Below are positions 567 through 6,361 of a DNA stretch of 37,279 bases, one piece after another. The stretch is from NCBI GenBank assembly GCA_003553945.1, contig PWEL01000047.1, positions 1-37,279 of the forward strand. The letters are read 5' to 3'. The position numbers and the translations under genes were made by a program. The first letter of the stretch is position 1; every line of letters begins with the position of its first letter. The notes beneath the pieces were generated by a model. That model did no database searches. It was given only the letters and a program-made list of their open reading frames with translations, and was not told the origin of the DNA. This DNA comes from Mollicutes bacterium (GTDB lineage: Bacteria; Bacillota_I; Bacilli_A; Izemoplasmatales; Izemoplasmataceae).

Positions 567-604
567 AAAGGCCTGATTCCGATGAAGCCGGAATCAGGCC
601 TTTT
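567..604. terminator. Bidirectional Rho-independent terminator
   Basis: A 14-bp perfect stem (567-580 with 590-603) encloses a 9-base loop. It has T residues on the right and A residues on the left, so it can work on both strands. It lies between the convergent membrane-protein gene and the cyclic-di-GMP signalling gene and probably ends both. Confidence 0.9.
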
Positions 605-640: not shown

Positions 641-2383
641 TCACTCTTCAAGAGGTTCATGCTTGATGATATCAAGGAAATGTTCACATAGCTCGGGGTC
701 GAACTGTTTCCCCGAGCACCGTTCGAATTCTTCGATGATCTCCTGCTTGGATTTTGCTTTTCTATAGGGTCTGCCGTTCAACATTACATCATACGCATCG
801 ACGATAGCGCCAATTCTCGAGAGCAGCGGGATTTCCTCTCCTTTTAAACCTTTAGGGTAGCCTTTTCCATCCCAGTGTTCATGATGCGCGAGTATGTCTA
901 TAGCAACGTGGGCGAAATCTTCGGTGGCCGATGCGATTCTGTAACCAATCTCCGGGGGTTTCTTTATTATATCCCATTCCTCTTCTGTAAGTGGGCCTTC
1001 TTTATTCAAGATCTTTTCAGGAATGTTTATCTTGCCGATGTCGTGCAAGGTGATCAACAATTTCAGCCGGTCGAGTTCGGATTCGGACAAGCCGAGCCTT
1101 TCCGCAAATTTCAAGGCAAGGACCGACATGCGCTTTGTGTGTTCTTCAGTCTCATGACTCTTTTCACTCAGGATTTTCAAGAAAGAGAGTACTATGGAGT
1201 TTTTCTGACTGTGTGTTTCTGTGAGTTTCTGTTTGTACATGTTGTCTTCGGCTTCATGAAGGATGCCATCAACATTCTGCGTTTCATTCCTTCGTATCCC
1301 GCATCCTAAAGCAGCGGAAAGCGGGATATCGTTTATTTGCCTTTCATTGATGTTATTCCGGATTCTTTTGCCGATGTCTTCCAACGCATCCTCATCAGTC
1401 TCCGGGAATAGAATGACAAATTCATCGCCGCCCCATCTGGCCACAATGTCTTCTTTACGGCAGGTATCCTCTATAATGCGTGCGGTCAGTTTCAGCATCT
1501 CGTCTCCGGTTTGATGACCATAAGTATCATTGACCAGCTTGAGGCCATTGAGGTCAAGCATTATGATTCCTATGGAGGGTTTCTTGCTATTGCTATCTAA
1601 TCGTCTCAACTCGGTTTCGAAGAAGTTCCTGTTGTAAAGTCCGGTCAGGCGGTCATGAAAGCTGGCGAATCTAAGTTCACTTTCCGCAGCCTTTCGACGC
1701 GTAATGTCGACAACGTTTATCAGGACGGAGGGTCTTTCATCATAATCGATGTGCGAACAGCTCATCACGCACCATTTTTCCTTATTGTCCAGTCTGATGT
1801 CATACGTCTCCTGTTCAGGCGTGCTCGTTTGGAAACCATTGTCAGTGATCAGATGCTCGATTGTCTTGGCGCTTTTTTCATCGAGAAGATCTTTGAAGGA
1901 CAGATGTTTCAAGTTGATGTTACCGTTGCCGAAGATGTCCATGAAAGCGCCGTTGAAATACACAATCCTACCGTCCTGCAGGATAGAGACGCCGGTGGGA
2001 CTGTCGTCGAGCACCTTCTTGAAATCATCGAACACTTTCTTGGTTTGTAGAAGATTTGCGATTCTTAATGAGAACTCTTCTTTCCCGACCGGGACATGGA
2101 TCAGTTCATCGGCTGTTTCAAGGTATTCGTTCGGCAGATTATGCTTTCTATCCGTCAGTAATAGTATGGGAAGATAGCTTGATTCGTGCCGCTCCTTTAA
2201 TGCCGCCAGCTCTTCTTTCAAGGCGGACGTGTGCTCTTCATCGATGATCACAAGGTCGGTGTCTAGGATATGCTCGTCAAAGTCGACTTTTTCAGGCTGA
2301 AACACGGTGTATTGACCGCGGAGGAATCGTTCAATAAGCCCGCTGTTGTTCTTATTTGATATGAGTACTGTGATTTTGTACAT
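641..2383 (-). CDS. Pseudo-receiver / PAS / GGDEF / HD-GYP cyclic-di-GMP signalling protein
   Basis: A 580-residue signalling protein for making and/or breaking down cyclic-di-GMP. Domains in order: receiver-like (1-115), PAS-like sensor (about 118-230), GGDEF cyclase (about 240-390), HD-GYP phosphodiesterase (about 400-575). The cyclase has an intact GGDEF (318-322) and an inhibitory-site RxxD (R309, D312) five residues before it, so it is probably active and product-inhibited. The receiver keeps an Asp at the phosphoacceptor position (D48, in 'VIIDEE'). It lacks the acidic pair after strand 1 and the conserved Lys near 'HVPV' (96-99), so it is a likely pseudo-receiver. The HD-GYP part keeps H447-D448, H500-H501 and G508-Y509-P510, but has Pro476 where most members have a metal-binding His. 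No membrane segment is seen, so it is cytoplasmic. Start ATG has GAGG eight bases upstream. It begins 31 bases after the KaiC-like gene, in the same operon. Confidence 0.9.
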   Translation of the reverse strand: MYKITVLISNKNNSGLIERFLRGQYTVFQPEKVDFDEHILDTDLVIIDEEHTSALKEELAALKERHESSYLPILLLTDRKHNLPNEYLETADELIHVPVGKEEFSLRIANLLQTKKVFDDFKKVLDDSPTGVSILQDGRIVYFNGAFMDIFGNGNINLKHLSFKDLLDEKSAKTIEHLITDNGFQTSTPEQETYDIRLDNKEKWCVMSCSHIDYDERPSVLINVVDITRRKAAESELRFASFHDRLTGLYNRNFFETELRRLDSNSKKPSIGIIMLDLNGLKLVNDTYGHQTGDEMLKLTARIIEDTCRKEDIVARWGGDEFVILFPETDEDALEDIGKRIRNNINERQINDIPLSAALGCGIRRNETQNVDGILHEAEDNMYKQKLTETHSQKNSIVLSFLKILSEKSHETEEHTKRMSVLALKFAERLGLSESELDRLKLLITLHDIGKINIPEKILNKEGPLTEEEWDIIKKPPEIGYRIASATEDFAHVAIDILAHHEHWDGKGYPKGLKGEEIPLLSRIGAIVDAYDVMLNGRPYRKAKSKQEIIEEFERCSGKQFDPELCEHFLDIIKHEPLEE

Positions 2384-2414
2384 GCAGGGGACCTCTTTTC
2401 TATCCTGAGCCGTC

Positions 2415-3920
2415 TTACCTGCGATTATTCATGGTATCATCTTCGCTTGGTCCGAGGATTTCAGGGACACCGCTCAGCACACCCCTTAATTCTGTCAGCG
2501 GTCTGCCCACTTTTATGCCTTCAGATGTTATGTCGAATTCCCTGAGTGTCTTCTCGAAATTGCTCAGACGTTTCTTAAGCACGCCGATGGCCTTTAGAAT
2601 ACTTCCTCTTACTTCTATATAGCGTAAGAAGATGATGTTATCAGCAATATAGCTTATGCCATGTTCGGAGACTTTGAACGTCCCGGTTATGTCGTGCACT
2701 TCATTGATCAGGATCAGGCTTACGCCCATGCTTTTAAGGTGTTCGGCCAGGATATGTATGTTTCTCAGCATTTCATCTTCCCGGTTCATTTCGTAAATGT
2801 CTCTTATGAAGGATAGCTGATAGCCGGAGATGCTGTCGAGTACGATGATGCTCGTGCCTTCATTTTCAGCTTTTTCCCTCACCCTGTTCGCGAACTGGAT
2901 GGGGGTATATTCTAACGGGTTGATTTTCTCGATTGATAGGTTTCCTTGATCAAACATCTTGTCAATCGGCATGCCGATTCCTCTGCAGCGTGTGATGATA
3001 GAATCCTTGGTCTCTTCAAAAGTATAGATCGCTGTGTGTTCCCCTCTCAAGGCGGCTTCATCTGTGAACTGTGCGGCCAGGGTCGATTTTCCGACGCCAG
3101 TGGGCCCGCTGATGACGGTGGTCGTCCCCTTTTCCAAACCGTCATGCAGGAGCTTGTCTATTTCGGGGACCCCCGAGGAAATGGTTTCATGGTTTCGTCT
3201 TTTTTCCTTTGACAAGTCTTCAGGTGTGATTCTGGGGTATACGGTCATTCCGTCGCTTTTGAGGCTTATGGAATGGACGCCGGATTTGAAGCCTGAGCCT
3301 CTGAATTTTTTGACACGGATGCCACGCTCTTCCCCTGTGAATATAAGCTCTATGACTCCGTCGCAGATGAACTGCAGGTCATCGTCCGTCATGGCGGCGC
3401 TTGTCTCCGAGGAGAGCACCAGAGTCACGTCGTATCCTGAGAGGAAATCCAGGAGGATCAAGAGTTGTTTGCGGAACTGATAGTTATCCGTGGAGATATA
3501 CTTGAGCTGCGAGACGCCGTCTAGGTATAACCGGTCAGGCTCTATTTCCTTAATCTTGCTGATAATGCTTTCTATGATGGGAGATGCCTCCACCTCGCTC
3601 GAGGCGAACACATTGTAATCCATTTCCTCCATGTCGGTCTCGCTTGGTGTCAAATCCAGAAACTCTACATTTTGTAAATTGAAATTCCTGCTTATGGCGT
3701 CTCTTTTAATCTTGTCGATGCTTTCTGAAAAGCTGACGAACAAGGATTTAGATTCATCTTCAGGATGATTACCGAGGAATTGCAGTCCCAGAGTAGTCTT
3801 TCCTGTGCCAGGACCACCAGTGATCAGATAACTGTTCTGTTTAATAATACCCCCTCTAAGGATATCATCCAGACCCGCCGTACCGCTCGATATTTTCTGT
3901 GCACCATGTTTTTCGCCCAC
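2415..3920 (-). CDS. KaiC-like double-domain RecA-family ATPase
   Basis: A 501-residue protein close in length and architecture to KaiC, the cyanobacterial clock ATPase, with two RecA-like domains. Domain 1 has a Walker A at 35-43 (GGPGTGKTT) and a Walker B near 131-135. Domain 2 has a Walker A at 272-280 (GPTGVGKST) and a Walker B near 358-362. The paired catalytic glutamates of KaiC are kept in domain 2 (E302-E303), but domain 1 reads S65-E66. Aligned by eye on 'YIEVRG', the KaiC Ser431/Thr432 phosphosites fall at S423 and Y424, and Thr426 falls at S418. KaiA and KaiB are not in the window. Non-cyanobacterial KaiC-like proteins are widespread and mostly uncharacterised, so a clock role should not be assumed. 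The start is GTG, with AAAGGG ten bases upstream. It shares an operon with the cyclic-di-GMP protein, which suggests that ATPase state and cyclic-di-GMP signalling are linked (inference). Confidence 0.9.
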   Translation of the reverse strand: MGEKHGAQKISSGTAGLDDILRGGIIKQNSYLITGGPGTGKTTLGLQFLGNHPEDESKSLFVSFSESIDKIKRDAISRNFNLQNVEFLDLTPSETDMEEMDYNVFASSEVEASPIIESIISKIKEIEPDRLYLDGVSQLKYISTDNYQFRKQLLILLDFLSGYDVTLVLSSETSAAMTDDDLQFICDGVIELIFTGEERGIRVKKFRGSGFKSGVHSISLKSDGMTVYPRITPEDLSKEKRRNHETISSGVPEIDKLLHDGLEKGTTTVISGPTGVGKSTLAAQFTDEAALRGEHTAIYTFEETKDSIITRCRGIGMPIDKMFDQGNLSIEKINPLEYTPIQFANRVREKAENEGTSIIVLDSISGYQLSFIRDIYEMNREDEMLRNIHILAEHLKSMGVSLILINEVHDITGTFKVSEHGISYIADNIIFLRYIEVRGSILKAIGVLKKRLSNFEKTLREFDITSEGIKVGRPLTELRGVLSGVPEILGPSEDDTMNNRR

Positions 3921-4015
3921 GTGCCATCAACCCTTTCATATAATAAAATAGGGAATTCATCAGAGGTTATTCCCGCTATGTTCCGCAGTGGGAAGTAGTC
4001 TTGGAAGAAATATAG

Positions 4016-4114
4016 TTAAAGCGTCGGTTCATTGATGATCCATGGTTGCTTGAATATGGAAACATGACTGAAAAACCCTTCGGCCATAGCCTTTGCGCTA
4101 TTTGAAAAGTTCAT
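4016..4114 (-). CDS. Possible 32-residue leader ORF before the KaiC-like gene
   Basis: A short open frame starting MNFSNSAKAM and ending NEPTL, with no membrane helix or signal peptide. It starts at ATG with AAAGGA about eight bases upstream and lies about 40 bases downstream of a well-formed promoter. It is followed after 95 bases by the KaiC-like gene on the same strand. It could be a leader peptide, a small partner protein of the ATPase, or a chance frame. Promoter and ribosome binding site support translation; length alone gives no support. Confidence 0.45.
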   Translation of the reverse strand: MNFSNSAKAMAEGFFSHVSIFKQPWIINEPTL

Positions 4115-4159
4115 GGGTGGTTTCCTTTGTCTTGTTCTCGGATTTTTTGATGTAAAATA

Positions 4160-4188
4160 ATTATATGCCTGTTTCGCTTAAATATCAA
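4160..4188 (-). promoter_or_regulatory. Sigma-A-type promoter for the KaiC/cyclic-di-GMP operon
   Basis: On the minus strand TTGATA (4183-4188) and a perfect TATAAT (4160-4165) are separated by 17 bases. Transcription would start near 4152 and run through the small ORF, the KaiC-like gene and the GGDEF/HD-GYP gene. Confidence 0.8.
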
Positions 4189-4318: not shown

Positions 4319-6361
4319 TCAGAAGAGCGCCGCGAAGACCAGGCTGATGATCGTCATCAGTTTGATGAGGATATTGATGGAGGGGCCGCTTGTATCCTTG
4401 AAGGGGTCGCCGACGGTGTCTCCGGTGACGCTGGCCTTGTGGGCGAAGCCGCCTGCATCTCCATGATGCCCTTCTTCAATGAATTTCTTTGCGTTGTCCC
4501 ATGCGCCGCCGCTGTTAGCCATGAAGATCGCCATGCTTATACCGCTGGCGAGCGCGCCCGCAAGCAATCCTCCCAGAGCTTCGGGACCGAGGAGGAAACC
4601 GATGAGAAGCGGTGCGGCGACGGCGAGCAGTCCGGGGATGACCATCTCCTGGAGCGCGGCCTTGGTGGAGATATCGACACATCGTGCGTAGTCCGGCTTC
4701 TGCGTCTTGTCCATGATGCCCGGGATGTCGCGGAACTGCCGCCTGACTTCATCGATCATTTTCGAGGCAGCTCTGCCGACGCTGCTCATGGTGATCGAGC
4801 TGAAAAGGAACGGAAGCATGGCGCCGATGAGAATGCCGATGATGACATCGGGTGTCGCGATGTCGATGGCATCGGCCCCCGTGGCCTGGACGAATGCGCT
4901 GAACAGTGCAAGGGATGTGAGTGCGGCGCTTCCGATGGCGAATCCTTTTCCGATGGCGGCTGTCGTATTGCCGACACTGTCAAGCTTGTCGGTGATCTTG
5001 CGGACCTTGTTGTCGAGGTTCGACATTTCAGCGATGCCGCCGGCGTTGTCGGCGATGGGGCCGTAGGCATCGATGGCGATTGTCATGCCCGTCGTTGAAA
5101 GCATGCCGACGGCGGCTAGGGCGATGCCGTATAGCCCCGCGATGGCGTTCGAAAGCATGATGACGATGGCGATGAGCAGAATAGGGATCGCCGTGGATTC
5201 CATGCCGATCGCTAGACCGCCGATGATGTTCGTCGCATGCCCCGTCTCCGATTGCTTGGCGATGCCCTTGACTTTCTGGTATTCGCTCGAAGTATAGATT
5301 TCGGTGATAATCCCTATGACGATGCCCACGAACAAGCCGGCGATAATCGCGACGAGAGGGGCGAAGTTGCTGAAATAGCCGCTGTGGACGTAGAACCAGG
5401 TCAGAAAGAGTGCGAAGATCAGGAAAAGTCCTCCGGCGACATATGTACCTTTATTGAGGACCTTGTGCGGGGAATCCGCTTTTTTCGTTCTTATAGTCAT
5501 GACCCCGAGTATTGAGGCCAGAATCCCCACGCCGGCGAGGAATATCGGGAAAAGCGCCGCTTCAAGCGCCATGCCGTCAATGATCATCGGTGATGCCATT
5601 GTCGCGCCGAGCGTCACAGCGGCGATCAGGGAGCCGATGAAGGATTCAAAGAGGTCCGCGCCCATGCCGGCGACGTCGCCGACATTGTCGCCGACGTTGT
5701 CAGCGATGACCGCAGGATTGCGGGGGTCGTCCTCGGGGATTTCGGCTTCGATCTTTCCGACCAGATCGGCGCCGACATCAGCGGCTTTTGTATAGATGCC
5801 GCCGCCGACACGGCCGAAAAGTGCGATCGAGGAAGCGCCGAGACCGAATCCTGTCAACACCTCGACAAGGTGTGTGATTTCCATGTTCAATAGATATGTG
5901 CCGATGAGGTAATACGTGATCAGCCCGGTGAGACCCAGCCCGACAACGGACATGCCCATGACCGCGCCGCCGCTGAAGGCAACGTCCAGAGCCTTGTTCA
6001 TACCTTCTTTGTCAGCGCTTGTCGCTGTACGCGAGTTGGAAGCGACGGCGCCTCGCATACCGAGATATCCCGCCAATGCGGACAGCACAGCTCCGAAGGC
6101 GAATGCGCCGGCGGTGGGGAAGTCGATGGCGAAACCGATAATAAAAAAGAGCACGAAGACAAAGACGCCGAGTATCCTGTATTGGCGCGACATGAATGCC
6201 ATCGCTCCCTCACGGATATAGCCGGATATCTCTATGACCCGGGGGATGCCTTTTTCTATGCGCTTGATCTTGAGAAACAGCAGCAATGCATACAGCATGG
6301 CGATGACGCTGAAGATCAGCGCGATGCTCAATATGCTGTTCATGCTGAAGAGCAGTGGCAT
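4319..6361 (-). CDS. hppA: Membrane-bound cation-pumping pyrophosphatase (K+-dependent type)
   Basis: This membrane enzyme hydrolyses pyrophosphate in the cytoplasm and uses the energy to pump H+ or Na+ outward. It has 680 residues, typical for the family, with many transmembrane helices. Family motifs are seen: [19 protein letters not shown] (211-229), GMGADLFES (232-240), and [14 protein letters not shown] near the C-terminus (647-660). [10 protein letters not shown] (464-473) has Ala468 where K+-independent members carry Lys, so it belongs to the K+-dependent group. Glu239 directly after DLF is the placement known from Na+-pumping and some K+-dependent H+-pumping members, so the ion cannot be fixed by eye. 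Start ATG 6361 has AGGAAGGTGA close upstream. It is a single-gene unit with its own promoter and terminator. It could recycle the pyrophosphate made by nucleotide-cleaving enzymes such as RdgB and MazG. Confidence 0.96.

Follow-up and report, generated by a model that had tools for sequence, protein, structure and literature searches.

In 2011 De Luca et al. described KaiC proteins of the SY, TY or SF type that have no KaiB and are accompanied by a dedicated histidine kinase with a receiver-like N-terminal domain (RtaNt; PMC3164672). The Ramlibacter pair Rta_04330/Rta_04340 was found by reverse-transcription PCR to be co-transcribed and an hourglass was proposed; in other contexts the same study found GGDEF/EAL genes in the neighbourhood of kaiC (PMC3164672). 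Among clock proteins, the Glu-Glu (EE) pair of the CI domain is conserved across KaiC1-3, with Tyr in some KaiC3 only (Schmelling 2017; PMC5520375), and in known KaiCs mutations of the CI catalytic pair disturb the binding of KaiB (PMC10076222). A study of the effects of cyclic-di-GMP (c-di-GMP) on the Synechococcus clock reported no direct action of this messenger on Kai proteins. Here we compare with these systems a locus from a Mollicutes bacterium of the order Izemoplasmatales, in which the gene for a KaiC-like ATPase is followed by that of a four-domain c-di-GMP enzyme. It lies on contig PWEL01000047.1 (G000:C43), all 37,279 nucleotides of which we analysed (the window); the host genome assembly (G000) has 1.17 Mb and is 64% complete. 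The two genes probably encode a two-protein module, in which a KaiB-independent KaiC with a Ser-Tyr (SY) phosphosite dyad would be read by the N-terminal pseudo-receiver (PsR-N) of its partner, and so would set c-di-GMP turnover.

A KaiC-linked pseudo-receiver on a cyclic-di-GMP enzyme

Both genes are on the minus strand, separated by 31 bases:

2415..3920, minus strand: gene for the KaiC-like two-domain ATPase (GTG start at 3920, 501 residues, two PF06745 domains, expectation value (E) 3e-66); CI domain at residues 11-230, CII at about 250-471, SY subfamily
641..2383, minus strand: gene for the PsR-PAS-GGDEF-HD-GYP protein (ATG start at 2383, 580 residues)
2036..2383, minus strand: PsR-N, residues 1-116, a KaiC-linked adaptor by profile and predicted fold
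1688..2026, minus strand: PAS domain, about residues 120-232 (Pfam PAS 120-228)
1217..1672, minus strand: GGDEF domain, about residues 238-389 (Pfam 242-389, E 3e-38), GGDEF motif and RxxD I-site intact, CRKEDIVARWGGDEF
659..1198, minus strand: HD-GYP domain, about residues 396-575 (Pfam HD_5 403-565, E 7e-35)

Residues 1-116 of the partner have no Pfam match. Their predicted structure is a receiver fold (mean predicted local distance difference test score, pLDDT, 88.9), and a structure search with this model matched receivers, PleD among them, at Z 14-16; the pseudo-receiver of CikA was also among the matches. The best solved relative of the PsR-N profile is the second receiver of PleD (E 5e-14). 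The acidic metal-binding pair is replaced, the conserved Lys is a Val, and the phospho-Asp position, D48, is kept; with its receiver fold, the domain is a pseudo-receiver. A KaiB-like nature of the N-terminal domain was hinted at in 2011; the matches listed for PsR-N, by profile and by fold, include no KaiB, and the natural proteins in those lists are receivers.

A search of named genomes with the single window KaiC sequence returned no relative; a three-sequence KaiC alignment succeeded. The best 80 of 184 relatives of the window protein, a sample biased towards near kin by that choice, come mostly from cyanobacteria and Chloroflexi, and also from Halanaerobiales, archaea and one Methylobacter. 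PsR-N (~117 residues) opens the protein encoded beside KaiC in 76 of these 80 loci, with a histidine kinase as C-terminal output in 61 and a c-di-GMP enzyme in 13. The archaeon Halalkalicoccus has an SY-type KaiC (L108:4980-6476, plus strand) for which no adjacent pseudo-receiver was found, the sole such exception of the 80.

When only the 60 copies of PsR-N that are fused to kinases went into a profile, its search against 765 proteins matched residues 1-116 of the window protein at 54.9 bits (E 3e-16). This profile scored 47 bits with the partner in the congener G004, 72 bits with that in G062, from another family of the order, and 93 bits with that of L031, a Halanaerobiales locus; the top background outside the module was 26 bits, and both type-B partners (G006, G080) were unmatched. 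A second PsR-N profile, which includes the window protein and its kin, was searched in 90 genomes of the order and reached E <= 1e-27 solely in G000, G004 and G062, the three genomes with this KaiC subfamily (next match, 3e-10). By these profile comparisons the receiver-like part of the partner is a KaiC-linked adaptor, homologous to the domain fused to histidine kinases elsewhere. To that extent they bear out the first-pass annotation, made from the DNA alone, which had this part reading the state of the ATPase. At many loci a further pseudo-receiver, a stand-alone protein of ~121 residues, is encoded between the two genes; the window and G004 have none at the pair locus, and the window protein is not among the matches of the stand-alone profile.

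Control of the enzyme by KaiC via the pseudo-receiver is well supported but unproven. Its main rival reverses the direction: the c-di-GMP enzyme, or its PAS/pseudo-receiver part, would tune the KaiC ATPase/kinase, and KaiC would have its output elsewhere. In KaiA and CikA the pseudo-receivers are quinone-binding and either act on KaiC or bind KaiB (PMC12632262), and the resemblance of PsR-N to that of CikA, the sensor role of PAS domains and the stand-alone pseudo-receivers at many loci would all suit such an arrangement. PsR-N, however, is N-terminal to an enzymatic output that varies with lineage (histidine kinase, GGDEF, GGDEF-EAL, HD-GYP), and a variable output behind a constant PsR-N has the look of an output coupler. 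We consider the reversed direction unlikely.

The SY subfamily of KaiC

The residues that define the window KaiC are as follows:

3795..3818, minus strand: CI Walker A, GGPGTGKT, its lysine invariant across all loci
3723..3728, minus strand: CI catalytic pair, residues 65-66, reading SE in place of EE; 73 of the 78 subfamily members have lost the first Glu
3012..3017, minus strand: CII catalytic pair EE, residues 302-303, intact in the alignment
2649..2654, minus strand: phosphosite dyad Ser423-Tyr424, which corresponds to S431-T432 in the KaiC of S. elongatus; SY in 77 of 78

With two PF06745 ATPase domains in ~500 residues and Walker A and B motifs in each, the protein is a two-domain KaiC. 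Its CI pair, SE, and its dyad, SY, set it apart from canonical clock KaiC1, KaiC2 and KaiC3, and it carries the full subfamily signature: the Ser-Tyr dyad together with loss of the first CI catalytic Glu. Across the 78 subfamily loci the second CI Glu is retained in all, and at the CII pair 76 have EE and 2 have DE; in the window KaiC the CII kinase/ATPase residues are intact. Neither KaiA nor KaiB had a match in the host's own genome (64% complete) or in G004 (96% complete), in agreement with the earlier suggestion that the system operates without them; a KaiBC or KaiABC clock was thus not found in either. The lost CI Glu, taken with the disturbance of KaiB binding by CI mutations, fits a KaiB-free subfamily.

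The ring could nonetheless keep time, as a KaiC hourglass or a clock without KaiA and KaiB that gives timed c-di-GMP pulses. KaiC homology and the retained CII catalytic residues and Ser are compatible with this; an hourglass was the 2011 proposal for the histidine-kinase version (PMC3164672), and in Rhodobacter a KaiBC system without KaiA runs as an hourglass that is set by ATP/ADP (PMC10076222). We judge it improbable here: KaiA and KaiB were found in neither genome, the CI pair whose mutation disturbs KaiB binding in known KaiCs (PMC10076222) has no first Glu, the second phosphosite is Tyr, and nothing known here ties the organism to a daily cycle. The KaiC ring is more likely an energy reporter or a slow switch than a clock.

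Apparent exchange of the output enzyme

The 13 c-di-GMP outputs comprise GGDEF in nine loci (Nodosilinea and relatives), GGDEF-HD-GYP in two (L030, which is G004, and L031, whose KaiC is 52% identical), PAS-GAF-GAF-HD-GYP in one (L087) and GGDEF-EAL in one (L105). One further PsR-N protein has a PAS-GAF output and one is interrupted by a contig end. The Nodosilinea-group loci (L053, L064, L066, L068, L069, L073, L081, L084 and L093) have KaiC followed by a PsR-N-GGDEF diguanylate cyclase, the genes mostly overlapping.

On the KaiC tree, a quick tree in which G062 is a long branch, at least three changes between histidine-kinase and c-di-GMP output are required: one for the window with G004 and L031, one for the Nodosilinea group and one for G062 with L087. 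The window enzyme shares its docking domain with histidine-kinase partners in many other bacteria, so that the output, but not the adaptor plug, seems to have been exchanged. In the host's own genome HisKA kinases number two, whereas the GGDEF/HD-GYP protein has 15 matches, which suggests a swap towards the local signalling currency. Whole-operon transfer from Halanaerobiales is not favoured as a source: the catalytic half of the window enzyme groups with same-genus paralogues (94/91), and the L031 half is close but outside. G004 holds a second gene of this kind, PAS-PAS-GGDEF-HD-GYP (L013:10857-13256, minus strand), ~2.3 kb from the pair; in the catalytic half its product and the window protein share 51% identity.

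Catalytic state of the enzyme and integrity of the locus

The GGDEF active site and I-site (RKED...GGDEF) of the window protein are intact, as they are in the G004 copy, so that its diguanylate cyclase motifs are, by sequence, complete. The HD-GYP domain differs in one position:

956..958, minus strand: codon CCC, Pro476, at the conserved His position of HD-GYP, equivalent to H250 of PmGH; every other HD-GYP domain in the comparison has His there

H250 of PmGH is a metal ligand; the set of HD-GYP metal ligands in the window protein is incomplete, and the c-di-GMP breakdown half may be impaired. The CCC codon is a single base away from the His codon CAC, and Pro476 is either a sequencing error, a sign of decay or the mark of a cyclase-biased copy. 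Of the protein that had been expected both to make and to break c-di-GMP, the synthetic half stands and the hydrolytic half is in doubt. The G062 copy has a degenerate GGDEF motif, GGGQF; taken with the ligand lost in the window, this suggests that direction and sign of the output may vary among members.

The transcriptional layout that had been read from the DNA held up throughout, from the promoter through KaiC, the short gap and the four-domain partner to the hairpin:

4160..4188, minus strand: sigma-70-like promoter TTGATA-N17-TATAAT, 11 of 12 matches, top of 13 candidates in the region (13 promoter-like sites seen against 7.3 expected by chance)
4016..4114, minus strand: 32-codon open reading frame in the leader, with a plausible ribosome site in the sequence; probably no conserved gene
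~567..604, minus strand: terminator-like hairpin (fold of 555-640 at -32.7 kcal/mol, z = -3.5)

The 31-base gap and the single promoter suggest that KaiC and its partner share one transcript. The small frame, once proposed as a third component, does exist at 4114-4016, but it has no relative in any of the loci fetched, congener G004 included, and is rejected as a component; it is best read as leader or chance. A search for a riboswitch in the operon leader gave no Rfam match, either in the window or at four related loci. Directly upstream on the same strand is a membrane pyrophosphatase-like gene (4319-6361, minus strand) with its own promoter-like site at 6470-6442.

The pair has a G+C content of 46-47%, below the 54% of the window and the 52-58% of the upstream genes, and KaiC was not found in four of the six genomes of the genus, two of those four being 69-73% complete. 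Deviating composition and patchy occurrence suggest that the cassette is mobile or was gained recently. They also agree, as does the exchange of His for Pro, with a decaying, recently acquired cassette that is partly non-working in the window strain. Both long frames are open, though, with GGDEF motif, I-site, Walker motifs and CII residues all intact, and Pro476 may stem from a sequencing error or mark a change to a cyclase-only role; we consider decay improbable.

Conservation of the pair within the order

KaiC occurs in five of the 90 genomes of the order, and all five copies adjoin a GGDEF/HD-GYP gene. When KaiC was sought more widely, in a class sample of 395 genomes and a phylum sample of 392, the threshold used yielded members of the order only. 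The search for the pair in other genomes that the first-pass annotation had advised thus found it conserved, here and in the wider set of loci. In G004 (public metagenome-assembled genome 'Mollicutes bacterium B1Sed10_40m') KaiC is 71% and the partner 55% identical, in the same gene order, and the flanks are unrelated: neither window flanking gene is present in 16 kb around the pair. In G062 a KaiC with 42% identity is followed by a stand-alone receiver-like protein, and this in turn by a PsR-PAS-GGDEF-HD-GYP protein. The remaining two, G006 and G080, have a distant KaiC type (24-27% identity) in the gene order GGDEF-HD-GYP, KaiC, KaiB. In these two members of the same family (L014, L029) the genes form a tight operon of a membrane-PAS-GGDEF-HD-GYP protein, a KaiC with an SS dyad, and KaiB.

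GGDEF/HD-GYP genes are plentiful (11-21 matches in the genomes of interest), so adjacency alone would not be very improbable, but an adaptor specific to the SY KaiC subfamily across phyla and a pair retained in G004 amid unrelated flanks largely refute uncoupled chance neighbours or general clustering of signalling genes, which we regard as very improbable; on these comparisons the adjacency is not chance.

Proposed mechanism and its likely targets

In the module that we favour, the SY-type KaiC, presumably an ATP-dependent hexameric ring, would signal through its nucleotide state or the phosphorylation state of Ser423/Tyr424. PsR-N would bind KaiC (CII, Ser423/Tyr424) in a nucleotide- or phosphorylation-dependent manner and alter the geometry of the partner dimer, and hence its cyclase, by a PleD-like logic. 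The PAS domain would be a second input to c-di-GMP turnover.

Several observations weigh against this reading or are neutral to it. Binding of KaiC to its partner is proposed from sequence comparison. The correlation of KaiC and PsR-N distances (r = 0.90, 0/2000 Mantel shuffles) agrees with coupling but is also expected from plain co-inheritance of neighbours. The stand-alone pseudo-receiver is missing at the window locus, so the module may be incomplete; the window HD-GYP is without one metal ligand and the G062 GGDEF is GGGQF; and the host's own genome is 64% complete.

Downstream, c-di-GMP from the partner could be read by c-di-GMP-I riboswitches. The host's own genome has four, and some were present in all seven genomes tested. 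Three of the four are grouped with genes for small exported proteins and for a signal peptidase of the SipW-like type, and one precedes a prepilin-like protein with five CBM5/12 repeats, which suggests that c-di-GMP controls surface structures in this host; PilZ effectors were found in none of seven genomes searched. The exported-protein/signal-peptidase cluster and the prepilin-like protein would then be the targets, with KaiC feeding the pool. Riboswitch sites are at G000:C7:11861-12745 (minus strand) and G000:C48:36001-36075 (minus strand; loci L124, L125), and G004 holds a similar cluster (L126).

The module would link an ATPase of the clock type with the second messenger on which most signalling in the host group relies; the order has small genomes, mostly 1-2 Mb. 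We regard as an even call the broader proposal that a KaiC ring drives c-di-GMP directly, without KaiB, via a widespread and exchangeable pseudo-receiver plug whose histidine kinase was replaced several times, here in a lineage poor in such kinases. If it is true, the plug would give KaiC an output that does not depend on KaiB. Homologues of KaiC are common beyond the cyanobacteria, and the comparison offers a coupling domain, a subfamily signature and natural output swaps, through which direct talk between KaiC and its partner, and the KaiC state that is read, become testable.

Comparison with known systems

With PleD (REC-REC-GGDEF) the window locus shares a receiver-like domain feeding a GGDEF domain, but PleD has no KaiC, PAS or HD-GYP, and it is phosphorylation of an Asp in the first receiver that switches it. 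As in the cyanobacterial KaiABC-SasA system, a two-domain KaiC is combined with an N-terminal KaiC-coupling domain on the output enzyme. The coupler of SasA, however, is a KaiB-like domain whereas that of the window partner has a receiver fold, KaiA and KaiB were not found here, and there are differences in the CI pair and at the second phosphosite.

KaiBC operons with GGDEF/EAL or histidine kinase genes, the first context of De Luca et al., are represented in the order by G006 and G080. They too place a c-di-GMP enzyme beside KaiC, and are alike in host order and in their use of GGDEF-HD-GYP; unlike the window, they have a KaiC of 24-27% identity, kaiB, the signalling gene first, and a membrane-type N-terminus without PsR-N.

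The closest relative is the KaiB-less module of the second context, with the same Ser-Tyr dyad, missing kaiB and receiver-like N-terminus on a partner encoded immediately downstream. The phylum differs, and the output here is PAS-GGDEF-HD-GYP and not HisKA-HATPase; homology of PsR-N was established against the histidine-kinase-fused loci found in this study. The KaiB-less kind has been known since 2011; as far as the open literature searched shows, an SY-type KaiC joined by this adaptor to a GGDEF-HD-GYP enzyme is new.

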